Positions 12,716-43,246 of a stretch of 64,000 nucleotides of DNA are shown piece by piece; position 1 is the first letter of the stretch; the number at the start of each line of letters is the position of its first letter. The translations under genes were made by a program, and so were the position numbers. The stretch lies in contig JAFQRZ010000022.1 of NCBI GenBank assembly GCA_017409825.1, forward strand, positions 61,496-125,495, read 5' to 3'. The notes under the pieces were generated by a model. The model had not been told where the DNA came from, did not search any database, and was given only the letters and a program-made list of their open reading frames with translations. The DNA comes from Agathobacter sp. GTDB lineage: Bacteria; Bacillota; Clostridia; Lachnospirales; Lachnospiraceae.

Positions 12716-12756
12716 TGGACAAAGGCGTTCAAGTTTATTCTTGGACGCCTTTTTTA
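12716..12756 (+). promoter_or_regulatory. carA leader: ANTAR-type hexaloop overlapping a terminator
   Basis: Two exclusive folds are visible. The antiterminator is UGGAC[AAAGGC]GUUCA, a 5-bp stem with one G-U pair and a hexaloop with A at position 1 and G at 4. The terminator uses AAGGCGTTCAAG (12722-12733) paired with CTTGGACGCCTT (12740-12751), loop TTTATT, followed by a T-run. The loop and 3' arm of the first hairpin are the 5' arm of the second, so binding to the hexaloop would block termination. The same design recurs at pyrG, gdhA, glnN and after gdhA. A further stem (GAATGTC/GACGTTC, about 12779-12798) lies before the ribosome site and is unexplained. Confidence 0.75.
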
Positions 12757-12839
12757 TGTTACACAAACATATCGACGTGAATGTCTGAGGGACGTTCATC
12801 TCGGTTCAAAATTCTAATAAGGCGAATGAGGTTGTTAAA

Positions 12840-13934
12840 ATGAGTAAAAAAATCTATCTACAATTGGAAGATGGCACCATTTATGAAGGCAGCTCCTTTG
12901 GAGCTCCACTTATCAAAAACGTAATTGCAGAGGTTGTATTCACTACAGCTATGACTGGTTATGTAGAAACACTTACAGATCCAAGTTATTATGGACAAAT
13001 GATTGTTCAAACATTTCCTCTCGTTGGGAACTATGGAATTAATCCACATGACTACGAAAGTAAAAAACTTCATATAAGTGCTTACATCGTTCATGAATAT
13101 TGTCCAAATCCATCTAATTTTAGAAGTCGCTTTGACTTAGATAAATTTCTTATAGAAAACAATATTCCAGGAATATGTAATGTCGATACTCGTGCACTAA
13201 CAAAAAAAATCCGTTCAAATGGCGTAATGATTGGTTGTCTTTGTACTTCTCCCTTATCCCACAAAGAACTTACAACCTTAAAAAACTGGAAAATTACAGA
13301 AGCTGTAAAACATGTATCAACAACTTCTCTTACTCGCTTTTATAGTAGTTTGCCAAAACATCATGTTGTATTATGGGACTTTGGGGCAAAAGAGAATATT
13401 CTCCGTTCCTTAATTCATCTTAACTGTGATGTTTCAATTGTACCTGCTTCTACAACCTGTAACGAAATTTTATCACTAAAACCAGATGGAATTATGTTAA
13501 GCAATGGACCTGGTGATCCAAAGGACAATGTTACTATTATTCTCGAATTACAAAAGCTATGTGCCTGTAATATTCCAATCTTTGGAATCTGTTTAGGACA
13601 TCAACTCTTAGCTCTTGCCAACGGAGGAGATACAGAAAAAATGAAATATGGTCATCGTGGAGCTAACCAGCCTGTAAAAGATACAAAAACAGGAAAAACT
13701 TATATTACCAGTCAAAATCATGGTTATGCTGTCAAAACATATCAAATTCCGCCTTTTTCAAATATGTCTTTTATAAATGTAAATGACCATACCTGTGAAG
13801 GAATCGAATATCATCTCTTTCCAGCATTTTCTGTACAGTTCCATCCAGAAGCATGTGGTGGACCACATGACACAGAATTTATATTTCAAAAATTTATAGA
13901 TTTGATGGAAGGAGTAAAAGAAACATGCCACTAA
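12840..13934 (+). CDS. carA: Carbamoyl phosphate synthase, small (glutaminase) subunit
   Basis: CarA hydrolyses glutamine and channels ammonia to CarB to make carbamoyl phosphate for arginine and pyrimidines. The 364-residue protein has the CarA N-terminal domain (GSSFGAP, MTGYVETLTDPSYYGQ) and a class I amidotransferase domain with the nucleophile Cys in FGICLGHQ and the His/Glu pair in QFHPEACGGPHD. The usual sequence is PEAxxGPxD, so one residue differs. The ribosome site is GAATGAGG nine bases before ATG. It overlaps carB by ten bases. Neither arginine nor pyrimidine genes adjoin; control appears to be the hexaloop leader upstream. Confidence 0.96.
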   Translation: MSKKIYLQLEDGTIYEGSSFGAPLIKNVIAEVVFTTAMTGYVETLTDPSYYGQMIVQTFPLVGNYGINPHDYESKKLHISAYIVHEYCPNPSNFRSRFDLDKFLIENNIPGICNVDTRALTKKIRSNGVMIGCLCTSPLSHKELTTLKNWKITEAVKHVSTTSLTRFYSSLPKHHVVLWDFGAKENILRSLIHLNCDVSIVPASTTCNEILSLKPDGIMLSNGPGDPKDNVTIILELQKLCACNIPIFGICLGHQLLALANGGDTEKMKYGHRGANQPVKDTKTGKTYITSQNHGYAVKTYQIPPFSNMSFINVNDHTCEGIEYHLFPAFSVQFHPEACGGPHDTEFIFQKFIDLMEGVKETCH

Positions 13935-16900
13935 ATTCGAACCTGAAAAAAATACTTGTAATAGGCTCTGGTCCAATTGTGATTGGACAGGCTGCTGAAT
14001 TTGATTATGCTGGTACACAGGCCTGCCTCGCACTAAAAGAAGAAGGGCTTGAAGTAGTTCTTGTGAATTCCAATCCTGCAACTATTATGACTGATTCTAC
14101 CATTGCTGATCATGTATATATCGAACCTCTCACTCTTGACTATTTAAAAATGATTATTGAAAAAGAAAAACCTGACAGTATCTTATCTACGCTAGGCGGA
14201 CAAACTGGTTTGACTCTCTCCATGCAATTAGCAAAAGAAGGCTTTCTAACAAATCATGGAGTTACTCTGTTGGGTGCAAATCCGACTACCATAGATAAAG
14301 CAGAAGACAGACAGCTTTTTAAAGAAACAATGGATGCCATCAACCAGCCAATTGTTCCATCTATTGTAACCCAAACCCTGAATGACGCACTTCAATTTGC
14401 CCGACAGGTTCACTACCCTGTAATCGTACGTCCTGCATTTACCCTTGGTGGTTCTGGAGGTGGAATTGCAAATACCGAAGACGAACTTCGAAAGATTGCT
14501 TCTTCAGGTTTGCGACAATCTCCTATCCATCAGATTTTGGTAGAAAAATGTATTTCTGGGTGGAAAGAAATTGAATTTGAAGTCATGCGTGATGGTGATG
14601 GAAACGTTATTACTATCTGCTCTATGGAAAATTTTGACCCAGTAGGTATTCATACAGGCGATTCCATTGTAATCGCCCCAGCGGTTACATTAGCGGACAA
14701 GGAATATCAGATGCTCCGTACCGCTGCACTTAATATTATAAATGCTATGGAAATAGAGGGAGGCTGTAATGTTCAATTTGCATTAAATCCAAACAGTTTC
14801 GAATATGCAGTCATTGAAGTAAATCCACGTGTCTCCCGCTCTTCTGCTTTGGCAAGCAAGGCAACTGGCTACCCAATCGCACGTGTTGCAGCAAAAATTG
14901 CACTTGGCTATCGTATGGACGAGATAAAAAATGAAGTAACAGGCAAAACAACTGCTTGTTTTGAACCCGCATTAGATTATGTTGTCATAAAATTTCCCAA
15001 ATGGCCTTTCGATAAATTTGTTTATGCTAATCGAACTCTCGGCACACAAATGAAAGCAACTGGAGAAGTCATGGCAATTGGTCGAAATTTTGAACAAGCA
15101 TTTCTAAAAGCCATTCGTGGTGCAGAAATCTCTCATGATTTTTTAGATGATAAAAACATAAAAACGTTATCGGACTCAGAACTGATTGGAAAAATATATG
15201 AACAGGATGACGAACGAATTTTTGCAATTTATGAGGCTTTACGCCGTAATGTTACAATAGAAGATTTATATGCCATGACAAAAATCGATCGCTGGTTTTT
15301 ATATAAACTACTCCATTTATATGAATTAGAAAACAGATTGCTTTCAGAAGAATTGACAGATTCTTTTATAGAAGAATTAAAAACCTATGGATTTTCTGAT
15401 AAAACAATTTGCAGACTTAGCAATATAAAAGAAATAACTCATAAACCATATAGCTATAAAATGGTAGATACCTGTGCAGCTGAATTTAGTGCTGTTACAC
15501 CTTATTTCTATTCCACATATGATGAAGAAGATGAAGCCTTAGAATATGTGACAGATTTTGCTCACAAAAAGCCTGTTGTAATCGTATTTGGCTCCGGTCC
15601 AATTCGTATTGGTCAGGGTATTGAGTTTGATTATGCTTCTGTCCACTGCGTATTTTCTCTAAAAAAAGCAGGCTATGAAGTTGTCATCGTTAACAATAAC
15701 CCTGAAACAGTTTCCACTGATTTTAATACTGCTGACCGTTTGTATTTTGAACCTTTAACCCCAGAAGATATCGCAGACATTATTGCAATCGAGAAACCAG
15801 TTGGATGTGTCGTCGCATTTGGGGGACAGACTGCTATTCGTCTCACCCACTGGTTATCAGAAAATAACATTCCGATTCTAGGCACACCTGCAGAAAGTAT
15901 TGATGCTGCAGAAGACAGAGGACGTTTCGAGCAATTATTAAAAGAGTTAAATATAAAACAGCCAAGTGGCACTACTGTCCAAACAGAAGAAGAAGCACTT
16001 AAAGCAGCAAATGAGTTGGGATATCCAGTGCTGCTTCGTCCATCTTATGTACTAGGTGGACAAAATATGATTATCGCCTTTTCCGACGCAGATGTCAGTG
16101 AATATATGAAAATTATCCTTTCCCACATGACCCATAACATCGTCCTCATCGATAAATATATGCAGGGCACCGAATTAGAAGTAGATGCCATCTGCGACGG
16201 AAAAGATATATTGCTGCCAGGTATTATGGAACATATTGACCGTGCCGGTATCCATTCAGGAGATTCTATCGCGGTATATCCTGCATGGAATTTAACCGAA
16301 AACCAAACAGAGCAAATCATTGATTACTCTACAAAACTAGCATTGGCTTTAAAAACAAAAGGACTAATTAACATTCAATATGTTATCAGTAATGGAGAAA
16401 TCTATGTGATTGAAGTAAATCCTCGTTCTTCACGAACCGTACCATATTTAAGTAAAGTCACTGGTGTTCCAATGATTGATATTGCCACCCAAATCATGTT
16501 AGGCGAAACCTTGGAAAACATGGGATACACATCCGGACTCTATCCTAATGCAAACCATGTAGCCGTAAAGGTTCCTGTATTTTCTTTTGAAAAACTAGCT
16601 GGACTAGATACTTCTTTAGGACCTGAAATGAAATCTACGGGTGAAGTTCTTGGTATTGCCCCTACACTCAATGAGGCTCTTTATAAAGGACTTTTAGGTG
16701 CAGGATATCATTTTGAATCAAAGGGCGGAGTTCTTATTACGGTTCGCGATACAGATAAAGAAGAAGTGATACAGATTGCAAAGGATTTTTCTACTCTCGG
16801 TTTTCATCTATATGCAACCGAAGGTACAACCAATATCCTGCGTGAGCACGGACTTTCCGTTACTATGGTTCATAAAATACATGAATCGGAACACAATACC

Positions 16901-17116
16901 ATTTCTTTGTTAGAAAGCGGAAAAGTAAATTTTATTATCTCTACCACCAAAAAAGGCCGTTCTCCACGACTCGACAGTGTGAAAATACTCCGTAAGAGTG
17001 TTGAACTGGGTATTCCGTGTTTGACTAGTCTGGATACAGCAAAAGCACTTGCTACCATACTTGCTATGAACTATACTCCACAAAAGACATCTCTTATTGA
17101 TATCTGTACATTATAA
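13925..17116 (+). CDS. carB: Carbamoyl phosphate synthase, large subunit
   Basis: The 1063-residue synthetase uses two ATP to make carbamoyl phosphate from bicarbonate and CarA-derived ammonia. It shows the duplicated ATP-grasp architecture: GSGPIVIGQAAEFDYAGTQA near residue 14 and its repeat GSGPIRIGQGIEFDYASVH near 558, each followed by an ATP-grasp domain (RPAFTLGGSGGG and RPSYVLGGQNM). The C-terminal MGS-like allosteric domain (LYATEGTTNILREHGL) binds UMP or ornithine in homologues. Length is normal for the family. The start overlaps the carA end, which keeps the two subunits coupled. Confidence 0.97.
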   Translation: MPLNSNLKKILVIGSGPIVIGQAAEFDYAGTQACLALKEEGLEVVLVNSNPATIMTDSTIADHVYIEPLTLDYLKMIIEKEKPDSILSTLGGQTGLTLSMQLAKEGFLTNHGVTLLGANPTTIDKAEDRQLFKETMDAINQPIVPSIVTQTLNDALQFARQVHYPVIVRPAFTLGGSGGGIANTEDELRKIASSGLRQSPIHQILVEKCISGWKEIEFEVMRDGDGNVITICSMENFDPVGIHTGDSIVIAPAVTLADKEYQMLRTAALNIINAMEIEGGCNVQFALNPNSFEYAVIEVNPRVSRSSALASKATGYPIARVAAKIALGYRMDEIKNEVTGKTTACFEPALDYVVIKFPKWPFDKFVYANRTLGTQMKATGEVMAIGRNFEQAFLKAIRGAEISHDFLDDKNIKTLSDSELIGKIYEQDDERIFAIYEALRRNVTIEDLYAMTKIDRWFLYKLLHLYELENRLLSEELTDSFIEELKTYGFSDKTICRLSNIKEITHKPYSYKMVDTCAAEFSAVTPYFYSTYDEEDEALEYVTDFAHKKPVVIVFGSGPIRIGQGIEFDYASVHCVFSLKKAGYEVVIVNNNPETVSTDFNTADRLYFEPLTPEDIADIIAIEKPVGCVVAFGGQTAIRLTHWLSENNIPILGTPAESIDAAEDRGRFEQLLKELNIKQPSGTTVQTEEEALKAANELGYPVLLRPSYVLGGQNMIIAFSDADVSEYMKIILSHMTHNIVLIDKYMQGTELEVDAICDGKDILLPGIMEHIDRAGIHSGDSIAVYPAWNLTENQTEQIIDYSTKLALALKTKGLINIQYVISNGEIYVIEVNPRSSRTVPYLSKVTGVPMIDIATQIMLGETLENMGYTSGLYPNANHVAVKVPVFSFEKLAGLDTSLGPEMKSTGEVLGIAPTLNEALYKGLLGAGYHFESKGGVLITVRDTDKEEVIQIAKDFSTLGFHLYATEGTTNILREHGLSVTMVHKIHESEHNTISLLESGKVNFIISTTKKGRSPRLDSVKILRKSVELGIPCLTSLDTAKALATILAMNYTPQKTSLIDICTL

Positions 17117-17218: not shown

Positions 17219-18004
17219 CTACATCTTACTTATTACTTTCTTTATTTCATCTACCATATCTTTTACTACTGGTGATATCTTCCTACAGAACATTCCTTCA
17301 AAAAGTTTGTTTAAATTTTCTTCAAAATTTTCTGGTAAAATCTTACATTCCTTAGAACAAATGCTTTGCATTCGTTTTTCACCAGGATGTGTCATTTCAT
17401 TTAATGCAAATATAATATCAAAATAACTGGCTAAAAATTCTGTAACCCTATGATTTACGCTTACGAAATCTTTTCTATTCTCTGCTTTTTCTATTTGTGC
17501 ATCAAAAGATGGTAACATTCCACTAAGCAATTTCATATTATTTGAAATAATATTTTCCTTTAATTTCTTCGGATATGGTATTTGATATTTTGTTTGTAAT
17601 TCTTGCAGCTTACCATTCTTGTCATATACAATCTTTGATGTTATCAGATTATGCCACATACAAGTTGTATAACCATTCCAAGAAACACAATAATCCACAA
17701 CAGACGAAACCATATTCTCAAAATCTGTCATATTTCTATAAATAATATCCATATCTATTCCATCACTTAAAGTAACATCATCCTCAAGTTCCCAAAAAGA
17801 ATTTCCTATTTCCATATAGCTGCAATATTTTTCCAATATACCTCTTCGAATACTTTCGTCAACATTATCTGATAAATACACATATACATCATAATCTGAT
17901 TTTTCGTCATTTCTTCCCGTGGCTCGTGAGCCTCCGAGTGCAATTGCTTCAACCTGTAAAATGTGACTAAATTCATCAAATATTTTTTGAACATCAACTT
18001 TCAT
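17219..18004 (-). CDS. Nucleotidyltransferase-fold protein (DUF4037-like C-terminus)
   Basis: The 261-residue protein has a minimal nucleotidyltransferase signature near residue 24: GGSRATGRNDEKSDYDVYVY, with the GS and DxD elements that bind metal and nucleotide. The remainder, helical and ending in MVDEIKKVISKM, resembles the substrate-binding part of DUF4037-type proteins. Such proteins include antibiotic adenylyltransferases and uncharacterised relatives; I see nothing that fixes the substrate. It follows guaA by about 80 bases with its own GGAGG site and could be the last gene of the nitrogen train or independent. Its composition is more A/T-rich than its neighbours, which hints at later acquisition. 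Confidence 0.7.
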   Translation of the reverse strand: MKVDVQKIFDEFSHILQVEAIALGGSRATGRNDEKSDYDVYVYLSDNVDESIRRGILEKYCSYMEIGNSFWELEDDVTLSDGIDMDIIYRNMTDFENMVSSVVDYCVSWNGYTTCMWHNLITSKIVYDKNGKLQELQTKYQIPYPKKLKENIISNNMKLLSGMLPSFDAQIEKAENRKDFVSVNHRVTEFLASYFDIIFALNEMTHPGEKRMQSICSKECKILPENFEENLNKLFEGMFCRKISPVVKDMVDEIKKVISKM

Positions 18005-18082
18005 AAATTACCTCCAAAACTTCATACCTACTTTTAATCATTTACTTTCCAATAGCTTGTTTTACTTACTCTTTGATATGAA

Positions 18083-19627
18083 TTATTCGAACTCTATCGT
18101 TCCTGGTGGTTTACTTGTTAGATCATAAAATACTCGATTTACTCCTTTTACCTCATTTATAATACGACTCATCACCGTCTGTAATACATCGTATGGAATA
18201 TTTGCAGTTTCGGCAGTCATAAAATCAATGGTATTGACCGCACGTAAAGCCACCGCATAGTCATAGGTTCTCTCATCTCCCATTACACCTACCGAACGCA
18301 TATTGGTAAGAGCTGCAAAATACTGTCCGATAGTCTTATCCATACCACATTTTTCAATTTCTTCACGATAAATAGCATCTGCTTCCTGTACAATACGTAC
18401 CTTTTCAGCAGTAATATCACCTACGATACGAACCCCAAGTCCTGGACCTGGAAATGGCTGACGAAAAACTAATTTCTCTGGAATTCCGAGTTCAAGCCCT
18501 ACTTTGCGCACTTCATCTTTGAAAAGGTTGCGAAGTGGTTCTATGATTTCTTTGAATGAAACTACATCTGGAAGTCCGCCTACGTTATGATGAGATTTGA
18601 TAACTACGGACTCACCACCAAAACCACTTTCTACTACATCAGGATAAATGGTTCCCTGTACAAGAAAATCTACTGTTCCAATTTTCTTCGCTTCTTCTTC
18701 AAATACACGGATAAATTCTTCTCCGATAATTTTACGTTTTGTTTCTGGCTCTGTTTCTCCAGCAAGTTTCATATAAAAACGTTCCTGTGCATTGACACGA
18801 ATAAAACTCAGTTCATATTTTCCTTCTGGACCAAAGATAGCTTCTACTTCATCCCCTTCAGCCTTACGGAGTAAGCCATGGTCGACAAACACACAGGTAA
18901 GCTGTTTTCCTATTGCTTTTGACATAAGAACAGCTGCAACCGAAGAATCTACTCCACCTGATAAAGCGCAAAGCACCTTTCCATCTCCTACTTTCTCACG
19001 AATTTCGGAAATTGCATTTTCCACAAAAGAATCCATTCTCCATGCACCACTACAACCGCATACACCCCGTACAAAATTGTACAGCATCTTACTTCCCTCT
19101 ACAGAATGAAGTACTTCTGGATGATACTGAATCGCATAGAGATTCTTTTCTCTATTTTCTGCTACTGCCACCGGACAATCCGCTGTATATCCTACAATAG
19201 CAAAATCTGGTGCAATTTGAGAGATATAATCAAAATGACTCATCCATACCGTTGTTATAGCTGATACCCCCTGAAACAATGGGGAAGTTGTATCTAAATG
19301 CACTTCTGTTTTCCCATATTCACGAATTGGTGCCTTTTCTACACTTCCACCAAGCACATGCATCATAAGCTGCGCACCATAACAAAGTCCCAAAACTGGA
19401 ATTCCAAGTTCAAATAACTCTCTGGAATAAGTAGGTGCCCCCTCTTCATAACAGCTATTTGGTCCACCTGTTAAGATGATTCCTTTCGGATTCATAGTCT
19501 TGATTTCTTCGATTGGTATACGATAAGAATAAATCTCACAATACACATTACATTCTCTTACACGTCGGGCAACCAACTGGTTATACTGTCCACCGAAGTC
19601 GATTACAATTACTAATTCATTTTTCAT
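18083..19627 (-). CDS. guaA: GMP synthase (glutamine-hydrolysing)
   Basis: GuaA converts XMP to GMP using glutamine and ATP. The 514-residue protein has a class I glutaminase domain with Cys82 in GLCYGAQ and His/Glu in IQYHPEV, then an ATP-pyrophosphatase domain with the PP-loop [14 protein letters not shown] (about 218-231), and a dimerisation domain ending in the substrate-binding [10 protein letters not shown]. Length is normal. It is the last recognisable biosynthetic gene in the minus-strand train from pyrG, 10 bases after glmS, and like many genes in the train it spends glutamine. Confidence 0.97.
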
Positions 19628-19637
19628 AGCTTTTTCC

Positions 19638-21479
19638 TTACTCTACTGTTACACTCTTTGCAAGATTTCTAGGTTTATCTACATCCAGCCCCTTTGCCAC
19701 ACTTACATAATAGCCCATAAGCTGAAGTGGAATAATTGCAAGACTCGTGGTAAAATGTTCCTCTGTTTTGGGAATATACACTGTAAAATCTGCATTATCT
19801 TCTACATTATATTTCCCATAATTGGTAAGTCCCATTAAATATGCTCCACGGCTCTTTACCTCAATAAGATTGCTCATGGTCTTTTCAAATAGCTCTGGCT
19901 GGGTTAATACACCTACCACTAAAGTTCCGTCTTCAATCAAACTTATCGTACCATGCTTAAGTTCTCCAGCTGCATAGGCCTCTGAATGAATATAGCTGAT
20001 TTCTTTTAGTTTCAAGCTTCCTTCCAAACAAGTTGCGTAGTCAACACCTCGTCCAATAAAGAAAACATCCTTTGCATTGGAATATTTAGAAGCAAACCAC
20101 TGAATACGTTCTTTATCTTCTAATATTTTTTCAATCTTGCCTGGCAATGTTTGAATTTCTTCTAATAAAGCAGTGTAGTTCTCTTCCGTAATTTCACCAC
20201 GAACCTTTGCAAATTCAATCGCCAAAAGATATCCAGCTATTAACTGCGTACTATAGGCCTTTGTAGTTGCAACTGAAATCTCTGGACCTGCCAATGTATA
20301 AAATACATGGTCTGCTTCTCTGGCAATCGAACTCCCCACTACATTCACAATCGCAAGCGTTTTTACACCTTTTGTCTTTGCTTCACGAAGAGCTGCCAGT
20401 GTATCTGCTGTTTCACCCGACTGACTGATAACAATTACCAAATCATTTTTCCCAAGTAATGGTTTACGATAACGGAATTCCGATGCCAAATCAGTTCTTA
20501 CAGGAATCTTTGCCAAATCTTCCATTACATACTGCGTGGTTACACCTACATGATAAGCAGATCCACATGCCACTATGTGTATCTGACTGTAATTTTGTAT
20601 CTCCTCTGGTGTCATCTCAAGATTAGAAAAATCAATTCTACCGTCCCTTACAACAGAAGATATGGTATCCTGTACCGCCCTTGGCTGTTCATGGATTTCC
20701 TTCATCATAAAATGCTCAAAACCGCTTTTTTCAGCAGCTTCAGCATCCCATTTGATTTCTGTTAAATCTTTCTGGATTTCATCTCCATCCAAATTATAGA
20801 AATGTACTTCTCCTTTTTGTAGTCTGGCAATTTCCAAATTTCCAACATAATATACATTACGTGTAAACTTCAAAATAGCCGGAACATCCGATGCCACATA
20901 GGTTTCTCCATCGTTTACACCGATTACCATAGGGCTGTCTTTTCTTGCTACCCAGATTTCTCCTGGATAGTCATCAAACATAACAGCTAGAGCATAGGAA
21001 CCACGAATACGCACCATTGTTCTATTTAATGCATCAATTGGTCCAATATTATATTTTTTATAATAGTAATCAATCAGTTTTACTGCGGCCTCTGTATCGG
21101 TTTGAGAATAGAAAGTGTAGCCTTTTCTAATAAGTTTATCTCTAATTTCTTGATAATTTTCAATAATACCATTATGCACAGCTACTACACAACTACTGTC
21201 ATCACTCACATGTGGATGTGCATTTTCTTCTGAAGGTTCACCATGAGTTGCCCAACGAGTGTGACCTATACCACAAGTTCCTGTCAATGAATTACCATCA
21301 TTAGTTTTTGCAGCTAGTACCTTTAAACGTCCTTTTGCTTTTACTACTTCTACTTTATTTTCATCATCTCTTACTGCTAATCCAGCAGAGTCATATCCTC
21401 TGTATTCCAGTTTTTCCAAACCTTCCAAAAGAATCGGAGCAGCCTGCTGTCTTCCTGTAAATCCTACAATTCCACACAT
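19638..21479 (-). CDS. glmS: Glucosamine-6-phosphate synthase (glutamine:fructose-6-P)
   Basis: GlmS makes glucosamine-6-phosphate from fructose-6-phosphate and glutamine, the entry to peptidoglycan amino sugars. The 613-residue protein begins MCGIVGFTG, with Cys as the N-terminal nucleophile after Met removal, and [18 protein letters not shown] in the glutaminase domain. Two SIS isomerase domains follow ([18 protein letters not shown] and the KELSYIH-like [21 protein letters not shown]). No glmS ribozyme is possible in the 29-base gap to purA, so the expression control common in Firmicutes is replaced by membership in this train. Confidence 0.97.
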
Positions 21480-21508
21480 ATTTCTCTCATCCTCACTATG
21501 TCATCTAC

Positions 21509-22783
21509 TTATCTATAAATTATATCTTCTCTTCCAGGACCATTTGAAATCATTGTAATTGGATATCCAATATGTTCTTCAATGAATTCAATATATTTAC
21601 GACAGTTTTCAGGAAGTTTATCATATTCTTTGATTCCACGAATATCACATTTCCATCCTGGTAGTACTTCGAATACTGGTTTTGCTTTTTCCAATAAATG
21701 TGTAACCGGAAAATCTGTAGTAACTTCGCCATCAATTTCGTATCCGACGCAAATCGGAATCTCGTCTAAATATCCTAAAACATCTAATACGGTAAATGCA
21801 ACATCCGTAGTTCCCTGCATACGGCACCCATATTTCGAAGCCACGCAGTCAAACCATCCCATTCTTCGTGGGCGTCCTGTAGTAGCACCATATTCTCCGC
21901 CATCACCACCGCGTCTTCTTAATTCATCTGCTTCATCACCAAAAATTTCACTAACAAAAGCACCTGCTCCAACTGCAGATGAATAAGCTTTACAAACTGT
22001 AATAATCTGCTTGATTTCGTATGGTGGAATACCTGCACCAATGGCTCCATATGCAGCCAATGTGGATGAAGATGTTACCATTGGATAAATGCCATGATCT
22101 GTGTCTTTTAATGTTCCAAGTTGTCCTTCTAGTAATATTGTTTTATTTTCTTTAATGGCATTATTTAGTATAGTAGAAACATCTGCAACGAAAGGTGCCA
22201 CCATATCACGATATTCATGGAGTGCTTCCAATAACTTCTTAGCATCAATCAAAGGTTTATGATACATATGCTCTAGCATAACATTTTTTTGTTCTACTAC
22301 TCTTTCTACCTTTTCTTTTAAACCTTCTTCATCAAATAATTCGCTTACCTGAAAACCAATCTTGGCATATTTGTCTGAATAAAATGGTGCAATACCAGAT
22401 TTAGTAGAACCGAATGACTTTTTGCCAAGTCGCTCCTCTTCATACTGATCAAATAAAATATGATAAGGCATTACCATTTGTGCCCTGTCAGAAACGAGAA
22501 TCTTTGGCATAGGCACTCCTTTTTCCACAAGGGATTGAATCTCTTTGAAAAGGAGTGGAATATTTAAAGCAACACCATTACCAATCACACTAGTTGTATG
22601 ATTATAAAATACGCCTGATGGTAAAGTGTGCAGTGCAAATTTACCATATTCATTTACTATTGTATGTCCTGCATTTGCTCCACCTTGAAAACGCACAATA
22701 TAATCAGCATTGCTTGCCAACATATCTGTAATTTTACCTTTTCCTTCATCTCCCCAGTTCGCACCTACTACTGCTTTCACCAT
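21509..22783 (-). CDS. purA: Adenylosuccinate synthetase
   Basis: PurA joins IMP and aspartate with GTP to form adenylosuccinate, the first step from IMP to AMP. The 424-residue protein has the N-terminal GTP loop GANWGDEGKGKITDML, the catalytic Asp within it, GGANAGHTIV, and the IMP-binding stretch STKSGIAPFYSDKYAK. C-terminal GRPRRMGWFD is the usual signature. It lies 15 bases after purB, so both AMP-branch genes are adjacent. Confidence 0.96.
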   Translation of the reverse strand: MVKAVVGANWGDEGKGKITDMLASNADYIVRFQGGANAGHTIVNEYGKFALHTLPSGVFYNHTTSVIGNGVALNIPLLFKEIQSLVEKGVPMPKILVSDRAQMVMPYHILFDQYEEERLGKKSFGSTKSGIAPFYSDKYAKIGFQVSELFDEEGLKEKVERVVEQKNVMLEHMYHKPLIDAKKLLEALHEYRDMVAPFVADVSTILNNAIKENKTILLEGQLGTLKDTDHGIYPMVTSSSTLAAYGAIGAGIPPYEIKQIITVCKAYSSAVGAGAFVSEIFGDEADELRRRGGDGGEYGATTGRPRRMGWFDCVASKYGCRMQGTTDVAFTVLDVLGYLDEIPICVGYEIDGEVTTDFPVTHLLEKAKPVFEVLPGWKCDIRGIKEYDKLPENCRKYIEFIEEHIGYPITMISNGPGREDIIYR

Positions 22784-22798
22784 ATGAATTACCTCGCT

Positions 22799-24253
22799 TT
22801 ACACATTAATTTCAACTGAAATCCCAAGTAGTTCTTTATTCGCTTCTAAAATTGGGCGAATATGATTACTTAAATAAGTTTCTACTTGTTCTTTCGAACG
22901 TCCTACATATTTTGCTGGGTCCATAGTTTCCTGTAGTTCTTCAATAGACAACTTAAATGCAGAATCTGCAGCAATTAATTCCAACAGATTATTTTCCTTG
23001 CCTTCTACTTTCACATTACGTCCAGCTTCCATAGAAAGTTCACGGATACGTTCATGAAGTTCCTGTCTGTTTCCACCCTTCTTTACTGCATCCATCATAA
23101 TATTTTCTGTTGCCATAAATGGCAGTTCACTCATAAGCCTCTTTTCGATTACCTTTGGGTAAACAACCAATCCATCTACTACATTCAGACACAAATCCAA
23201 TATGCCATCTACCGCTAAAAATCCTTCTGGAATGGCTAATCTCTTGTTTGCTGAATCATCCAAAGTTCTTTCAAACCACTGAGTAGCGGATGTAATCGCA
23301 GGATTTAAGGCATCCACCATAACAAATCGCGCCAAGGAAGTAATTCGTTCACTTCTCATTGGATTTCTCTTATATGCCATAGCAGAAGAACCAATCTGAT
23401 TCTTTTCAAATGGTTCTTCGATTTCTTTTAAATGTTGCAACAAACGAATATCATTACTCATTTTATGCGCACTAGCAGCGATTCCAGCCAAAACATTCAA
23501 AACACGTGTATCTATTTTTCTAGAATAAGTCTGTCCGGAAACAGGAAAGCATGCATCAAACCCCATTTTTTGTGCAATCATAGGGTCGATTTTGTCAATC
23601 GTTTCCTGGTCTCCGTCAAACAATTCCAAAAATGATGCCTGTGTACCAGTTGTTCCTTTCGATCCTAATAACTTCATATTAGAAAGTACAAAATCCAGTT
23701 CTTCTAAATCCAACTGAAATTCCTGTAGCCAAAGACAGGCACGTTTTCCAACTGTTGTTGGCTGAGCCGGCTGAAAATGGGTGAATGCCAAGGTTGGCAA
23801 GTCTTTATATTCTTCTGCAAAATCAGCCAATACTTTCATAACATTGACCAATTTTTTCTTTACTAAACGCAAAGCTTCCGTCATTACAATAATATCTGTG
23901 TTATCCCCTACATAACAGGAAGTCGCTCCCAAATGAATGATTCCTGCAGCCTTTGGACATTGCTGTCCATAAGCATATACATGGCTCATAACGTCATGAC
24001 GCACCAGTTTTTCACGTTCTTTTGCTACGTCATAATTGATATCCTCTGCATATGCTTTTAATTCTTCAATCTGTTCCTCTGTAATAACTGGTTTTCCATT
24101 CTGGCTTAAACCAAGCTCTTTTTCCGTTTCAGCTAATGCAATCCAAAGCTTTCTCCATGTACGAAATTTCATGTCTGGTGAAAAGATGTATTGCATCTCC
24201 TTACTTGCATATCTTTCTGATAATGGGCTTTGGTATTTGTCAGTTGTTTGCAT
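22799..24253 (-). CDS. purB: Adenylosuccinate lyase
   Basis: PurB removes fumarate from adenylosuccinate and from SAICAR, serving both purine completion and AMP formation. The 484-residue protein carries the fumarase/aspartase signature [17 protein letters not shown] with the catalytic serine loop, plus [14 protein letters not shown] and [15 protein letters not shown]. It is longer than the B. subtilis enzyme (about 430) and closer to the length of the eukaryote-like clade. It lies 10 bases after the malic enzyme gene. Confidence 0.95.
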
Positions 24254-24263
24254 AAGTTTCCTC

Positions 24264-25415: not shown

Positions 25416-25425
25416 AAATACCCTC

Positions 25426-26133: not shown

Positions 26134-26134
26134 A

Positions 26135-26881: not shown

Positions 26882-26895
26882 AGGATTACCTCTTT

Positions 26896-28506: not shown

Positions 28507-28531
28507 ATTTCGTACCTCTTCTTAAGAAGTA

Positions 28532-29746: not shown

Positions 29747-29777
29747 CACATCTGCCCTTTCATTGAAATATGCAATT

Positions 29778-30323: not shown

Positions 30324-30335
30324 GTGACCACCTCG

Positions 30336-31631: not shown

Positions 31632-31649
31632 AGTCAAAGCTCTCCTTTT

Positions 31650-33074: not shown

Positions 33075-33087
33075 GTAAGTATTCCTC

Positions 33088-36000
33088 CTATGCTTTTTTT
33101 GCAACTACACATGTATAAAAAGCTTCTATCTGTGCATCTTCCTTACTGAACCCCTGTTCTTCATATTTTCCCGATACCAACATAATCTCTTTATAATCTG
33201 AAGGAATAATTTTTTTAAACTTAGGAAGATAGTCCTTGAAATTCTCTAAAACGATTTTTCCTTTTTTTGAATCTGTAGCTTTTACATGAGCTTCTAGTAT
33301 TCGTTTTAATTCTTCCTGTTCCGCCTTACTCTCAACCTTTTCCATTAGAACAAGTTCTTTATTCAAGTTCTTATAAAGACAATTGTTTTCATCTAACACA
33401 TAAGCAATTCCACCACTCATTCCTGCCGCAAAGTTCTTATCAGTAGGTCCAAGTACCACGACTCTGCCTCCAGTCATGTATTCACATCCGTGTTCACCAA
33501 CACCTTCCACTACTGCTGTTGCTCCAGAATTACGAACACAAAAACGCTCACCTGCACGGCCTGCAATATATACTTCCCCAGAAGTAGCACCATATAATGC
33601 CACATTACCAATCAAAATATTTTCTTCTGGTTCATAAGTTGCTTCTTCTGGTGCATATACTGCCAATTTTCCGCCTGATAAACCTTTTCCTAAATAATCA
33701 TTACAATCACCACAAAGGTTTAATGTTATTCCTTTTGGAATAAACGCACCAAAACTCTGTCCGCCAGCGCCATTACAATCGATTGTAATCGTATCATCTG
33801 CAAGCCCCTCTGGATATTTTCTTGTAACTTCAGCGCCAATAAGCGTGCCAAAAGTGCGGTCTATATTCGTAAGAGAAATTTCAAATTTCTTTGGTATTCC
33901 TTTTTCTATGGCTGCTTTCATATCTTTTTTCTTTAAAAGAACAGCCTCATCTTTCACAGATGATAACTTAAAATCATAGATATATTCTGGCTGAAATACT
34001 GCCTGTTCTCCGGCTATTTCAGTATTCTGTAAAAGAATTTTACTTAAATCTATTTTTGCAGCATTGCCTGATAAACCTTCTTTTTTCTTTAATAAGTCTG
34101 TTCTTCCAACCAATTCATCCACCGTACGGACACCAAGCTTTGCCATATATTCACGTAACTGTCTCGCAATAAAAAGCATAAAATTTTCTACATACTCTGG
34201 CTTACCACTAAAACGCTTTCTAAGCTCCGGATTCTGTGTCGCGATTCCCATTGGACAAGTATCCAAATTACAAACACGCATCATTACACAACCTAAGGTT
34301 ACAAGTGGTGCTGTAGCAAATCCAAACTCTTCTGCTCCGAGAATTACTGCTATAGCAACATCTCGTCCAGTCATAAGTTTTCCATCTGTTTCAATCTTTA
34401 CTCGATTTCTAAGACCATTCGCAATCAATGTCTGATGTGCCTCTGCAAGACCTAACTCCCATGGAAGCCCTGCATTATGAATAGAACTTAGTGGTGCAGC
34501 TCCTGTACCTCCATCATATCCTGAAATAAGAATTACACTTGCACCTGCTTTTGCCACACCAGCAGCAACTGTACCGACACCTGATTCAGCAACTAGTTTC
34601 ACAGAAATTCCAGCATTTTTATTGGCATTCTTCAAATCATAAATGAGTTGTGCCAAATCTTCGATAGAATAGATATCATGATGTGGTGGAGGAGAAATCA
34701 AACTAACACCTGGTGTAGAATGTCTCGTTTTTGCCACCCATGGATATACCTTCTTTGCTGGCAAATGTCCTCCTTCGCCCGGTTTTGCTCCCTGTGCCAT
34801 TTTAATTTGAATTTCTTTAGCACTTACCAGATATTTACTAGTAACACCAAATCTTCCACTAGCAACCTGTTTAATAGCAGAATTTCTATCATCCTTTGTC
34901 CCTGCAGTTTTCAGCCTTTCGTCACTTTCACCACCTTCACCACTATTTGATTTTCCATGCAAATGATTCATAGCAACTGCCAATGCTTCATGTGCTTCTT
35001 CTGAAATAGAACCGTAGGACATTGCACCTGTCTTAAATCTCTTCACAATCTCTTCTTCACTTTCCACCTCAGAAATATCAACCCCTTGAGTTGGATAATT
35101 AAAATCCATCAGACTTCTTAAATATCCATTCTGCTCTTCATCGACCATCTTGGTGTATTGAACAAATTTATCATAATCACCTTCTCTAGTTGCCATCTGA
35201 AGCATGTGAATGGTTCTTGGATTATATCGATGTTCTTCTCCCTGACTTCTCATCTTATGACGCCCCATAGAACTAAGTGTTAAGTCATTTTCTAATCCCA
35301 ATGGATCAAATGCCTTGGAATGCTGTTCATCCGTCGCTCTTGCAATATCCTCTAAGGTGATTCCACCAATACGACTGACCGTACCAGAAAAATACTTGTC
35401 TACTACTTCTTTCGAAATACCGATTGCCTCAAAAATCTTACTTCCCTGATATGATTGAATCGTAGAAATACCCATTTTGGATGCAATCTTAACAATTCCA
35501 CTCAAGATAGCATGATCATAATCTTCCACTGCAGCATAATAATCTTTATTCAAGAATCCTTCTTCTATCATTTGAGCGATAGTGGCATGAGCAAGATATG
35601 GATTCACAGCACTAGCACCATAACCTAATAGTGTAGCAAAATGATGTACTTCTCTAGGTTCTGCTGATTCCAAAATCAATGACATTGCTGTGCATTTCTT
35701 GGTCTGAACCAAATACTGATGTACCGCTGCAACTGCCAAAAGAGAGGGTAATGCCACACGATTTTCATCTACACCCCTGTCAGAAAGTACAAGAATAGTT
35801 GCACCTTCCCGATATGCCTTATCGACCTGCGCAAATAAATGATCCATGACTCTATCAATCGGTGTGCTCTTATAATAAGTAATCAGTACTTTTACTACTT
35901 TAAATCCAGTTTTATCTATAGAGCTGATTTTTAACATATCCAAATCCGTAAGAATTGGATTATCAATCTTTAACGCCTGACAATTATCTGGGTGTTCTTC

Positions 36001-37641
36001 TAATAAGTTTCCATTTTTTCCTACGTAAACAGCAGTGGATGTTACAATCTTTTCACGAACTGCATCAATAGGTGGATTGGTAACCTGTGCAAATAACTGC
36101 TTAAAATAATAAAATAATGGCTGATATTCTTTGGATAATACTGCAATTGGAGTATCCACGCCCATAGCTCCAATCTTTTCACTACCATTTAATGCCATGG
36201 CATAAATATTATCTCTGTATTCTTCATAGGTATACCCAAATGCCTTTTGCAATCTAGCTCTTTCTTCCTTAGAATATTGCACAATTTTTTCATTTGGAAT
36301 CTTAAGTTCTCCCAAAGTAAGAAGTTTATTATCCAACCACTCACCATAAGGTTCCTTGTGAGCATATTCTTCTTTTAATTCTTCATCTGTCTTTACTTTT
36401 CCAACTACGGTGTCCACCAAAAGCATTTTTCCAGGATGCAAACGTTCCTTACAGAGAATATGAGACTCATCTAATTCTAAAACACCTACTTCCGAGGAAA
36501 GAATCAAACGATTATCATCCATAATGTAATACCTAGAAGGTCTCAATCCATTTCTATCTAAAATCGCACCCAATACATCTCCATCGGAAAACAAAATAGA
36601 TGCAGGACCATCCCACGGCTCCATCATGGTTGCATAATATTGATAAAAATCCTTTACCTCTTGCGAAATTGTATCATTATGAGACCAAGGCTCTGGAATC
36701 ATAATTCTAGCAGCAAGTGGTAATTCCATTCCGCTCATTACCAAAAATTCTAAAGTGTTATCCACCATAGAGGAATCGGAGCCCTCTGTATTTATCACTG
36801 GAAGCACCTTTGTAAAATCATCATCACTTAACTTACAAGAAAACATGGTTTCTTCTCGAGCCAGCATTTTATCTGCATTTCCCTTAATCGTGTTGATTTC
36901 ACCGTTGTGAACTATGAAACGATTTGGATGAGCTCTTTCCCAGCTTGGATTGGTATTGGTTGAAAAACGTGAATGTACTGTTGCAATGCCTGACTCATAA
37001 TCTTCATCCTGTAAATCCACAAAAAATGTACGTAACTGATTTACCAAAAACATACCTTTATATACAATCGTTCTTGAAGATAAAGATGGTACATATGTGT
37101 TATTATTACTTTGTTCAAATACACGTCGAACTACATATAACTTACGATCAAAATCAATGCCTTTTTCTACATCTTCAGGCTTTTCTACAAACCCCTGAAG
37201 AATTACCGGTTTACAGGACAATGCCTTTTCTCCCAACACCTCTGGATTCGTTGGAACTTCACGCCATCCAAGAAAACGCATCCCTTCTTTTTCTACAATG
37301 ATTTCAAACATTTTCATTGCCTGACTTCTTTTTCGTTCATCCTGTGGAAAGAAAAACATACCCACGCCATATTCACGTTCATCTCCAATCGGAATATTTA
37401 ATTCTTTACACACCTTTTGGAAGAACTTATGAGAAATCTGAGTCATAATGCCGACACCATCACCAGTTTTTCCTTCTGCATCTTTTCCAGCTCTGTGCTC
37501 CAGATTTTCTACAATACGCAAAGCGTCCTCTACGATTTTATGACTTTTCTTTCCTTTAATATCTACAACTGCACCAATACCACAGTTATCATGTTCAAAA
37601 CTTGCATCATATAAACCATTTTCTAATATATCCTGACGCAT
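33088..37641 (-). CDS. gltB: Glutamate synthase, large subunit
   Basis: GltB transfers the amide nitrogen of glutamine to 2-oxoglutarate, giving two glutamates. The 1517-residue protein has a short propeptide cleaved before Cys20 ([10 protein letters not shown]), the N-terminal glutaminase nucleophile. The central FMN-binding barrel contains [11 protein letters not shown] and [15 protein letters not shown] 3Fe-4S loop is seen in [19 protein letters not shown]. The C-terminal beta-helix ([21 protein letters not shown]) is normal. Its ribosome site GGAGGGAA lies within the last codons of pyrG, so translation of the two genes is coupled. Confidence 0.97.
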
Positions 37642-37643
37642 GA

Positions 37644-39242
37644 CTATTCCTCCCTCCGACTAGCCGCTGCCACAAAACCTTTAAATAATGGATGAGGCAG
37701 GTTCGGCCTTGATTTAAATTCCGGATGTGCCTGAGTTGCTATAAAGAATGGGTGATTTGGTAATTCAATCATCTCCACAATACGTTTATCTGGTGATAGA
37801 CCAGAAAGCACCATCCCTTTTTCCTCTAAACGCGAACGATAATCGTTGTTTACTTCATAACGATGTCTGTGTCGTTCCGAAATATTAGATTTTCCATACA
37901 ATTTTTCTGCAAGAGACCCTGACTTTAATTCACAAGGATATGCTCCCAGTCGAAGTGTTCCGCCAAGATTTTCTACACCATTTTGTTCTGGCATAAGCGC
38001 TATCACAGGATTTGTTGTTTCTGGCTCAAGTTCAATACTAGCAGCATCTGAAATTTTGAGTACATTTTTTGCAAATTCTACAATTGCAAGCTGCATTCCT
38101 AAACAGATTCCTAAATACGGAATTCCCTGTTCTCTTGCAAAACAAATGGCTTCTATTTTTCCATCCGTTCCACGTTTCCCGAATCCTCCAGGCACTAAAA
38201 TTCCATGCATATTTCCTAAATATTCCTGCACATTTTCTTTTGTAATATCTTCCGCTTCTATCCAATGAATATTTACATTTGCTCGATTTGCAATACCTCC
38301 ATGTTTCAATGCCTCAGCCACACTTAAGTACGCATCATGGAGCGCAACATATTTTCCAACAATTGCAATATCAACTGTCTTAGATGCAGTTTTCATATTA
38401 CGAAGCATCTCCCTCCAATCGGATAAATTTGGTTCTGGACATGGAATATGGAGACAATCACATACTGCCTGTGCCAATTGTTCCTCTTCCAGCATAATCG
38501 GTACTTCATACAACGATGGAGCATCCAGATTCTGTAACACATGTTCCTTTTTCACATTACAAAAAAGAGCTATTTTCTCTCGCATACTTTCATCCACTGG
38601 AAGATCCGATCTACATACTATAATATCAGGCCAAATTCCCATTCCCTGTAATGTTTTTACTGCCATTTGTGTAGGTTTTGTCTTCATTTCTCCAGATGCT
38701 TTCAAATATGGAATCAATGATACTAGTATTAATATAGCATTTTCCCTTCCTACTTCTGCTTGAAACTGTCGAATTGCTTCTAAAAAAGGCTGGCTCTCAA
38801 TATCTCCAACCGTACCACCTACCTCGATAATAGCTATTTCATTATCTTCACCTGTTTTCGATTTCTGAAACCTGTCTTTAATTTCATTTGTAATATGTGG
38901 AATGACCTGAACCGTACCACCGCCATAATCTCCATGTCTTTCCTTGTTCAATACAGACCAATATATTTTCCCTGTGGTAACATTTGAATTTTTATCTAAG
39001 TTTTCATCAATAAAACGCTCATAATGACCTAAATCTAAATCTGTTTCCGTTCCATCGTCTGTTACAAATACTTCTCCATGCTGAATTGGATTCATAGTTC
39101 CTGGATCAACATTAATATATGGATCAAACTTCTGCATTGTAATATGATATCCTCTTGCTTTTAAAAGCCTTCCAAGAGATGCTGCTGTGATACCTTTTCC
39201 AAGGCCAGATACCACGCCACCTGTTACAAATACATATTTCAT
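37644..39242 (-). CDS. pyrG: CTP synthase
   Basis: PyrG aminates UTP to CTP using glutamine. The 532-residue protein starts [17 protein letters not shown] behind AGGAGGGATTAAT; the open frame continues 15 codons upstream into the terminator, so the later ATG is right. The N-terminal amidoligase has [13 protein letters not shown] and the UTP/CTP allosteric loops; the C-terminal class I glutaminase has [14 protein letters not shown] and [10 protein letters not shown]. It is the first gene of the minus-strand train. The terminator between promoter and ATG can be expected to gate everything downstream. Confidence 0.97.
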
Positions 39243-39254
39243 ATTAATCCCTCC

Positions 39255-39315
39255 TAGTATCAAAAAAAGGGCGTCAAATAAACCCATATAATTGGGTTAT
39301 TTGACGCCCTTGCCA
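39255..39315 (-). promoter_or_regulatory. pyrG leader: ANTAR-type hexaloop overlapping a terminator
   Basis: On the minus strand the hairpin UGGC[AAGGGC]GUCA (39302-39315) shares its loop and 3' arm with a strong terminator. The terminator's 15-bp stem starts AAGGGCGTC and ends GACGCCCTT, continues through a bulge into CCCA/TGGG, and is followed by seven T residues. The ribosome site lies about 10 bases after the T-run. Hexaloop has A1 and G4. The hairpin is about 20 bases inside the predicted transcript, further than in the other leaders. Confidence 0.7.
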
Positions 39316-39370: not shown

Positions 39371-39395
39371 GAAAAAAAATTTTTCAAAATATTCC

Positions 39396-39424
39396 TTGAC
39401 ATTTATTTTTCATGGTGCTAAGAT
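39396..39424 (+). promoter_or_regulatory. Sigma-A promoter for amt
   Basis: TTGACA (39396-39401) and TAAGAT (39419-39424) with a 17-base spacer; predicted start near 39431. Confidence 0.8.
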
Positions 39425-39430
39425 TCCACC

Positions 39431-39538
39431 ATAAAGCAATGGAGCTACGAATATTATTCGTGGCTCTTTTTTGTTTTATAAATAACTTCATCTACAGAAA
39501 ACGGAGCAATGACGCTAAAAGTCGTTGCTCCGTTTTCA
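39431..39538 (+). promoter_or_regulatory. amt leader with two tandem terminators
   Basis: The first terminator is an 11-12 bp stem, GGAGCTACGAAT paired with ATTCGTGGCTCT (39441-39467), followed by TTTTTTG. The second is ACGGAGCAATGAC paired with GTCGTTGCTCCGT (39501-39533), followed by TTTTC. Each contains a short hairpin AGC[AAUGGA]GCU or AGC[AAUGAC]GCU, with A1 and G4 in the loop and the 3' part inside the terminator stem. The 3-bp stems are weak. An alternative CCAU[AAAGCA]AUGG is possible only if transcription starts a few bases earlier. The terminators are clear; the hexaloop assignment is tentative. Confidence 0.6.
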
Positions 39539-41326: not shown

Positions 41327-41346
41327 AACAATACATAAGCCAGAGA

Positions 41347-41375: not shown

Positions 41376-41398
41376 CTATTATTTTTATATTAATTTTT

Positions 41399-41566
41399 TT
41401 AATCCCATGTAGTAGTATTTCCAGAAAATTCACTGGTACTCTTTTCCTCCCCAGATAAAAATGCCTCTTTATAAAGTGAATCTGATTCTACTCTATCCGT
41501 ACGCATTTCTGGCGTTACATCCTTAAAATCTACAAAGTGAGTTATCTCTTGTTTTTTCTTATTCAT
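41399..41566 (-). CDS. Small hydrophilic protein (55 residues) downstream of gdhA
   Basis: I do not recognise this product. The gene starts at an ATG behind AGGAGGTAATGGA, an excellent ribosome site, and codes for a charged 55-residue protein (MNKKKQEITHFVDFKDVTPE at the start, NTTTWD at the end) with no membrane segment or cysteines. A bidirectional terminator follows closely. It is separated from gdhA by a hexaloop/terminator module and a second terminator, so its transcription would depend on readthrough from gdhA. Position between gdhA and the ammonium transporter suggests a role in nitrogen control, for example as a small inhibitor or adaptor of a nitrogen enzyme. That is inference. Confidence 0.65.
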   Translation of the reverse strand: MNKKKQEITHFVDFKDVTPEMRTDRVESDSLYKEAFLSGEEKSTSEFSGNTTTWD

Positions 41567-41583
41567 TCCATTACCTCCTACAA

Positions 41584-41609
41584 AAAGAAAGGTCACCGGA
41601 CCTTTCTTT
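41584..41609 (-). terminator. Second terminator before the small gene
   Basis: On the minus strand AAAGAAAGGTC pairs with GACCTTTCTTT (loop CGGT), followed by TTG and the ribosome site of the small gene. No overlapping hexaloop is seen. Confidence 0.7.
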
Positions 41610-41617
41610 GCATGTTT

Positions 41618-41679
41618 GTGCAATCAAAAAGGCATTATTCATGCATATACAATACAAAAACAACGCCTTTGTCATTTTT
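41618..41679 (-). promoter_or_regulatory. gdhA 3' module: ANTAR-type hexaloop overlapping a terminator
   Basis: Four bases after the gdhA stop (minus strand) a hairpin forms with loop AAAGGC (41665-41670). The core stem UGAC/GUUG extends by five A-U pairs to 9 bp in total. The loop and 3' arm also begin a terminator in which AAAGGCGTT pairs with AATGCCTTT across a long A/T-rich loop, ending in TTTTTG. This is the same C[AARGGC]GU core as the leaders, but placed at the end of a coding region, where it would decide whether gdhA transcripts continue into the small gene. Confidence 0.65.
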
Positions 41680-41682
41680 TCA

Positions 41683-43032
<1,350 letters not shown>

Positions 43033-43054
43033 CTATTTGTATTTTCATAGCAAA

Positions 43055-43108
43055 TAAAAAAAGACAAAGTGCCTTCAAGAAATAATCCTGAAAGACGCCT
43101 TTGTCTTC
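43055..43108 (-). promoter_or_regulatory. gdhA leader: ANTAR-type hexaloop overlapping a terminator
   Basis: On the minus strand GAAGAC[AAAGGC]GUCUUU (43091-43108) is a 6-bp hexaloop hairpin within a few bases of the predicted transcript start. The competing terminator pairs AGACAAAG with CTTTGTCT and CTTTCAGGA with TCTTGAAGG (loop TTATT), followed by seven T residues. Hexaloop and 5' arm of the terminator overlap completely. This is the clearest of the set. Confidence 0.78.
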
Positions 43109-43117
43109 ATGTGGGTG

Positions 43118-43146
43118 ATAATACTCCATTAAAAAACCTTTGTCAA
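43118..43146 (-). promoter_or_regulatory. Sigma-A promoter for gdhA
   Basis: On the minus strand TTGACA (43141-43146) and TATTAT (43118-43123) with a 17-base spacer; divergent from the glnN promoter. Confidence 0.82.
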
Positions 43147-43168
43147 TAAAATTTTTTTCAAAAAATGG

Positions 43169-43197
43169 TTGACAATTAAATTTCGAGGTACTAAAAT
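43169..43197 (+). promoter_or_regulatory. Sigma-A promoter for glnN-purF
   Basis: TTGACA (43169-43174) and TAAAAT (43192-43197) with a 17-base spacer; predicted start near 43204. Confidence 0.82.
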
Positions 43198-43205
43198 CCA
43201 AGCAT

Positions 43206-43246
43206 AGACAAGGGCGTCTTGGATTTATTCCAAGGCGCCTTTTTCT
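43206..43246 (+). promoter_or_regulatory. glnN leader: ANTAR-type hexaloop overlapping a terminator
   Basis: AGAC[AAGGGC]GUCU (43206-43219) lies at the predicted RNA 5' end. The competing terminator pairs AAGGGCGTCTTGG with CCAAGGCGCCTTT (13 bp with two G-U pairs, loop ATTTATT) and runs into T residues. Hexaloop A1 and G4 are conserved. Confidence 0.77.

Follow-up and report, generated by a model that had tools for sequence, protein, structure and literature searches.

Six leaders in a block of glutamine-related genes of Agathobacter sp. (a 64,000-nucleotide stretch of contig JAFQRZ010000022.1, hereafter the window) are, judging from the sequence, probably attenuators under an ANTAR-domain protein encoded in the same block, which would act on each of them through a single hexaloop hairpin, in most cases close to where the transcript begins. 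The block runs in the order carAB, a 22-kb same-strand run that includes pyrG, glnA and the ANTAR gene, amt, a 55-residue open reading frame (ORF), gdhA and glnN-purF. A preliminary description of the window had proposed an ANTAR-read antitermination regulon from five hairpins, and the pattern of conserved loops and changing stems, the nitrogen genes downstream and the co-occurrence of the hairpin with ANTAR genes support such a regulon.

Hexaloop hairpins and their terminators

All five hairpins described earlier were recovered at their positions, each with a six-base loop that has A at position 1 and G at position 4 (A1/G4), a C-G closing pair and the loop sequence AAAGGC or AAGGGC, and all five are matches at E ≤ 0.05 to a covariance model, R1, whose scores are given here. 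A sixth, before amt, was found by an open scan for hexaloop–terminator overlaps and also has A1/G4.

12716..12731, plus strand: carA leader hairpin, TGGAC[AAAGGC]GTTCA; 37.9 bits, in the R1 training set
12682..12710, plus strand: carA promoter-like sequence, TTGACT-17-TATATT; 5 nucleotides (nt) from the end of the −10 to the stem
39302..39315, minus strand: pyrG leader hairpin, TGGC[AAGGGC]GTCA; terminator at 39267-39311; 35.2 bits, in the training set
41656..41679, minus strand: hairpin just 3' of gdhA; terminator at 41629-41669; 41.4 bits, outside the training set
43091..43108, minus strand: gdhA leader hairpin, GAAGAC[AAAGGC]GTCTTT; 25.7 bits, outside the training set
43118..43146, minus strand: gdhA promoter-like sequence, TTGACA-17-TATTAT; 9 nt upstream of the stem
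43206..43219, plus strand: glnN leader hairpin, AGAC[AAGGGC]GTCT; terminator at 43211-43241; 36.1 bits, in the training set
43169..43197, plus strand: glnN promoter-like sequence, TTGACA-17-TAAAAT; 8 nt upstream of the stem
39429..39442, plus strand: amt leader hairpin with divergent loop, CCAT[AAAGCA]ATGG; terminator at 39438-39470
39396..39424, plus strand: amt promoter-like sequence, TTGACA-17-TAAGAT; 4 nt upstream of the stem
39497..39537, plus strand: a further terminator-like hairpin in the amt leader, its second, holding AGC[AATGAC]GCT (by eye)

In the pyrG leader, 26 nt separate the end of the promoter-like match from the stem. The minimum-energy fold of all six leaders is a terminator-like stem (z −5.4 to −8.5, from 300 dinucleotide shuffles each). 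The loop and 3' arm of the hairpin had been said to double as the 5' arm of the terminator, and an alternative fold is indeed present in every leader (at carA, the terminator at 12721-12752 begins with the hairpin loop and 3' arm), but the gdhA terminator takes in the hairpin's 5' arm too. The open scan, which accepted a terminator only if it began in the hairpin's loop or 3' arm, therefore missed the gdhA leader; the covariance model recovered it. The earlier suggestion that amt might be a target has gained a site, but one with the loop AAAGCA, a U-A rather than a C-G closing pair and no entry in the R1 match list. Beyond amt, the terminator at 41339-41382 (also delimited as 41347-41375) has GGGCGTC/GACGCCC in common with the regulated leaders; as a candidate further site it was rejected, its hexaloop having no closing pair by eye.

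In the window gdhA and glnN point away from each other, yet directly behind gdhA lies the genome's top-scoring hairpin. One relative (locus L199) has the order gdhA, hairpin, glnN, with the hairpin some tens of nt past the gdhA stop, and from this single case we suggest that the window's site may be a former gdhA–glnN attenuator left after rearrangement, or else the leader of the small gene that follows.

The motif in the genome and in relatives

R1 was built from 54 leaders (those of relatives, with carA, pyrG and glnN of the window) and searched against the whole genome of 2,796,438 bases. At E ≤ 0.05 it returned five matches, exactly the five sites of the preliminary description; two of them, the best (41621-41678, minus strand) and the gdhA leader (E 0.0425), lie outside its training set, and the next, sixth match falls to 17.2 bits (E 2.96). 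Among 76 leaders, 68 were non-redundant, of which the model alignment, A2, takes 54, leaving out the amt leader and 13 longer leaders; the amt row is shifted in alignment A1, and the L079 row in both A1 and A2.

The open scan covered the window, 33 loci of the same genome and 80 loci of relatives (1.49 Mb, both strands); a hairpin counted if it had a six-base loop, at least 4 pairs and a terminator beginning in its loop or 3' arm. It yielded 293 distinct overlaps, 95 of them with A1/G4 compared with 24 for the runner-up loop combination; in the 80 relatives' loci, A1/G4 was present in 72 of the 95 sense-leader matches and in 0 of 11 on the leaders' opposite strand. A plain pattern, GACAARGGCGTC with 2 mismatches, was uninformative genome-wide (224 matches versus 454 for the reversed control), the near-match C30 falls within coding sequence by eye, and the plain terminators (41339-41382 and 17148-17189) that a terminator-structure model, R2, also picks up were excluded from the counts.

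Stems had been described as differing in sequence while loops are conserved, and this holds across relatives: A1/G4 is kept, and stem sequences change with pairing retained. In the hairpin stem (60 distinct rows), 76 cells show a change on both sides of the pair, as do 109 in the terminator stem (54 rows); 0 of 500 shuffles reached either count. On two stricter measures the terminator stem again exceeds the shuffles (1 and 0 of 500 reach it), but the hairpin stem does not. A loop-only control was run because the matches had been pre-selected to have no fewer than 4 stem pairs: in cores picked by their C-loop-G sequence alone, three further pairs were found in 63 of 85 upstream cases, compared with 26 of 292 at other places in these loci. 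For most terminators the upstream arm is dispensable, and its complementarity therefore points to a second, competing structure. The sites might instead be constitutive intrinsic terminators or chance, with stems left from overlapping or read-through transcription and no regulation, a view that fits the short hairpin stems (−1.1 to −4.6 kcal/mol for the small hairpin alone) and the site 3' of gdhA, which has only an orphan ORF downstream; we give it almost no credence in view of that spare but complementary arm, the lack of any further R1 match below E 0.05 in the genome and the recurrence of the hairpin before the same genes across many genera.

Genes behind the hairpin and co-occurrence with the ANTAR gene

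Matches with A1/G4 lay within 450 nt upstream of a window-type gene in 79 of 96 cases, compared with 23 of 192 for other loops. The nitrogen genes that the preliminary description proposed to look for behind such matches are there. For the 78 C-G-closed matches in the window and the 80 loci, the gene was glnA in 37, pyrG in 26, glnN in 6, carA and gltB in 2 each, and purF and asnB in 1 each, with none assigned in 3. The 110 matches in loci picked by the model, own genome included, preceded glnN (26), glnA (20), gltB (14), amt (10), pyrG (9), asnB (5), gdhA (3), purF (2), dapL (2) and carA (1), and 18 had no gene assigned. By eye, some of the unassigned hairpins, in other genera, stand 5' of a eutA-like gene (locus L146, position 1508, plus strand) and of amino-acid transporter genes (L141, 1508, plus; L176, 542, plus).

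We then compared genomes with and without an ANTAR domain, at a match cut-off of E ≤ 0.05. In a family sample of 150 genomes, one per genus label, the hairpin was matched in 103 of the 131 genomes with the domain and in 3 of the 19 without (91 of 114 versus 0 of 12 among good assemblies), and at class level in 41 of 73 versus 10 of 75. Co-occurrence with the ANTAR gene, suggested earlier as a check, is thus evident in the family but weak within the genus, where 40 genomes bearing the same label gave 20 of 36 versus 1 of 4 (G322), no clear link. Three family genomes were matched although they lack an ANTAR domain: G137, in which the contig stops 18 nt past the glnA match, before the expected place of the ANTAR gene; G129, in which the match sits inside a coding frame; and G016.

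A single hexaloop close to the promoter

Published ANTAR targets consist of two tandem hairpins, both essential and with a linker whose length matters, and the upstream one (P1) is required for antitermination (PMC3369931, PMC8934654). The window's sites had been said to match the known ANTAR target; they share the A1/G4 hexaloop and the terminator overlap, but P1 is missing. Hexaloop hairpins of the P1 kind (A1/G4, three pairs) occurred in the 45 nt upstream in 9 of 75 leaders (10.3 in shuffles), and in a second leader set in 8 of 88 (10.7 in shuffles).

Promoter position bears on the same question. A promoter match of at least 9.5 of 12 was found in 63 of 78 leaders versus 49 of 1560 shuffled ones, and the distance from the end of the best −10 to the stem was 4–11 nt in 36 of 37 glnA, 6 of 6 glnN and 2 of 2 carA leaders (44 of 45 together). 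At this distance the stem would start at about +1, and the glnA, glnN and carA leaders would have no transcript in which P1 could form. For gltB, the two leaders of the first set have 23 and 34 nt, and 8 of 9 good-promoter leaders of the second set have 4–9. Single promoter-near hairpins also stand before glnA in other Clostridia families (L241, L242, L247, L248 and L253, by eye); L250 and L254 have a longer leader stretch in which P1 is possible.

These leaders could still be ordinary dual-hexaloop antiterminators whose P1 is a more degenerate hairpin, or comes from a tandem copy, and was overlooked. Tandem units exist in a minority of leaders, with two full hairpin–terminators before gdhA in L199 (2743-2860, plus) and before amt in L208 (550-680, plus) as well as in the window's amt leader; 11–36 nt are free in 24 of 26 pyrG leaders; and a P1-like hairpin can be seen by eye in the class-level locus L250. 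P1-like hairpins, however, stay at shuffle level, and 44 of 45 glnA, glnN and carA leaders leave P1 untranscribed, so that we consider a missed P1 unlikely.

The ANTAR protein

The preliminary description had placed an ANTAR protein within the block, and the profile search confirms it:

29778..30323, minus strand: ANTAR protein of 181 residues, NitR-like (PF03861, E 3e-17, 62.6 bits, cut-off 27.3)

It is the single ANTAR match in the whole assembly, which is 96.94% complete, and NCBIfam gave no name for it. The protein consists of a receiver-like domain, a helix and a C-terminal ANTAR domain; among the 80 relatives kept, the nearest is 93% identical, from a metagenome-assembled genome labelled Agathobacter sp. 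Where a phosphorylated receiver has its Asp, G, S, A or T stands in all 80 rows examined from the window and its relatives, whereas 3 of the 17 rows at class level have D; the acidic pair is replaced by P in 77 and by K or R in 80 of the 80 rows. A receiver without its phospho-acceptor suggests that the signal is probably a bound partner rather than a kinase. At fold level the protein matches 6wsh, 6ww6, 1qo0 and 1s8n; through the last two it resembles AmiR-AmiC and Rv1626, also receiver-like ANTAR proteins, which have other partners and other targets. AmiR, too, works without phosphorylation. Wherever a locus extends upstream of the ANTAR gene (78 of 78), its immediate neighbour on that side is glnA, and at class level the two are neighbours in 19 of 29 loci. 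In Clostridium saccharobutylicum, nitR presumably also stands beside glnA.

With residue places assigned from the alignment and the residue names in PMC8934654, two of the EutV residues that contact G4, K149 and E160, are conserved in 97 of 97 rows, a third, R142, is not, and where EutV has its stacking Tyr164 the residue is Y, H, F or W in 97 of 97. In alignment A3 the ANTAR domains of the family are unusually strongly conserved at residues 155-176 of the window protein, which is perhaps tied to the single-hexaloop target.

A reader other than this protein, either a different RNA-binding protein or an RNA that senses a small ligand, seems highly improbable to us. Three EutV contact residues differ in the ANTAR protein (R142, K143 and K147 are not conserved, with Q at the R142 place in 45 of 80), the link within the genus is weak, and at the Rfam gathering score the window gave only one tRNA and the 4 searched loci of the 80 gave nothing of this kind. 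Yet ANTAR targets follow the same A1/G4 rule and have the same conserved top pairs, hairpin and ANTAR gene co-occur at family and class level, the ANTAR gene is itself within the regulon, and two of the ANTAR-free exceptions (the contig end near glnA in G137 and the coding-frame match in G129) are of little help to another reader.

Proposed mechanism and its weak points

We propose that, in most leaders, transcription would begin at about the foot of the small A1/G4 hairpin. By default the loop and 3' arm would re-pair downstream into the intrinsic terminator, ending the message after ~50 nt; under nitrogen (glutamine) shortage the ANTAR protein would bind and hold the single hexaloop and so block the terminator, allowing read-through into carAB, the pyrG-to-guaA operon with glnA and the ANTAR gene, gdhA, glnN-purF and amt. 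Lying inside its own target operon, the ANTAR gene would amplify itself. By analogy with GS–TnrA in Bacillus (GS, glutamine synthetase) and with AmiC–AmiR, the best candidate for the signal partner is glutamine synthetase I, the constant gene neighbour. More tentatively, and with rather less than even confidence, we suggest that in Lachnospiraceae and other Clostridia a kinase-free ANTAR protein held by GS reads nitrogen status through a one-hexaloop switch at the 5' end, which would both recruit the protein and act as the antiterminator, over a regulon of glutamine makers and amidotransferases that would reach cytidine triphosphate, carbamoyl phosphate, asparagine and the amidation of phosphoribosyl pyrophosphate and, by operon, guanosine monophosphate and glucosamine.

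Several results weigh against attenuation through one hexaloop by this protein. In the hairpin stem, the pairs with two-sided change (4 versus 3.5; 277 of 500 shuffles reach this) and the further pair types (12 versus 10.6; 77 of 500) are near shuffle level, and the paired percentages are biased upward by the pre-selection on stem length (4 pairs or more). Promoter-like matches in 39240-43300 show no excess (11 versus 12.1 in shuffles), and the pyrG leaders, with 3–36 nt from −10 to stem, have room for P1. To these are added the divergent contact residues and the unclear link within the genus. The co-occurrence counts take genomes as independent, with kinship uncorrected; in the family, 28 of 131 ANTAR-positive genomes have no match at E ≤ 0.05, some of them threshold losses, given that even the gdhA leader of the window gets no better than E 0.04; and at class level 10 of 75 ANTAR-free genomes were matched, of which the expected 0.05 per genome explains about 4, E-values being rough. 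Finally, EutV needs P1, and single-hexaloop sites are expected where the transcribing polymerase sets no time limit (PMC8934654).

Gene context in the window

12840..17116, plus strand: carA-carB, carbamoyl-phosphate synthase
17219..39287, minus strand: probable long operon, pyrG-gltB-gltD-glnA-ANTAR-dapL-asnB-nadE-purC-malic enzyme-purB-purA-glmS-guaA-nucleotidyltransferase
30336..31637, minus strand: glnA, type I glutamine synthetase, directly 5' of the ANTAR gene
41399..41566, minus strand: orphan ORF of 55 residues with a stretch like a ribosome-binding site, 3' of the 41656..41679 hairpin and between amt and gdhA
43283..46776, plus strand: glnN (type III glutamine synthetase) and purF

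Adjacent genes of the long pyrG run overlap or are separated by at most 78 nt, and terminator-like sites within it (17150-37100) show no excess (13 versus 10.1 in shuffles). Amid its purine genes stands a short malic enzyme of 383 residues (24264-25415, minus). The ammonium transporter gene amt (39578-41326, plus) encodes a fused C-terminal P-II domain (PF00543). Among 60 relatives nothing clearly homologous to the 55-residue ORF turned up, the best other match having an E-value of 0.258; one guess is that its product is a small regulator of GS or glutamate dehydrogenase.

Relation to known systems and significance

The closest structural parallel is the EutV antiterminator of the Enterococcus faecalis eut genes, likewise a receiver–ANTAR protein (fold matches 6wsh and 6ww6) acting on A1/G4 hexaloops with conserved top pairs that overlap a terminator; EutV, however, is phosphorylated by EutW and needs both P1 and the downstream hairpin P2, whereas the protein here has no phospho-acceptor and would read a lone hexaloop near +1. 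In the 2022 EutV structure paper the smallest motif that ANTAR binds was redefined as one hexaloop; its authors described the role of single hexaloops as still to be determined and called for work on it (PMC8934654). In nitrogen metabolism the parallel is NitR of Clostridium saccharobutylicum, an ANTAR protein that induces GS and glutamate synthase (GS/GOGAT) on nitrogen limitation (PMC6316151, which dates NitR control of GS/GOGAT in Clostridium to 2007); its regulon is described as GS/GOGAT, not amidotransferases, and no RNA target structure for NitR was found in the literature searched. ANTAR control of nitrogen genes is also reported for C. thermocellum (PMC4676874). The regulons of Ramesh et al. 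2012 in Desulfotomaculum and Pelobacter hold several nitrogen operons per genome, covering glutamate, glutamine and arginine synthases, amt and P-II (PMC3369931); they were found with a dual-hairpin model, and single-hexaloop leaders are therefore not expected among them. GS as a nitrogen sensor that holds a regulator, as proposed here, has its precedent in GS–TnrA of Bacillus (PMC6316151), although TnrA binds DNA and the contact between GS and the ANTAR protein is our supposition.

The preliminary description's statement that no comparable regulon had been described was too strong, ANTAR nitrogen regulons having been reported (PMC3369931, PMC6316151), but no account of an amidotransferase set under ANTAR control, or of single-hexaloop leaders at the transcript start, was found in the literature searched; the main text of a C. 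phytofermentans start-site paper does not contain 'glnA' or 'glutamine' (PMC5171806). Within that scope, what appears new is the use of one hexaloop at the 5' terminus and the extension of the regulon to pyrG, carAB, asnB and purF.

If this is correct, the leaders would be a large natural collection in which a lone hexaloop, sited where the transcript begins, achieves antitermination unaided, a stripped-down form of a switch that normally has two hairpins. They would also give a major family of gut bacteria a general means of nitrogen control, with pyrimidine, purine, asparagine and amino-sugar synthesis coupled to glutamine supply by one RNA-binding protein.

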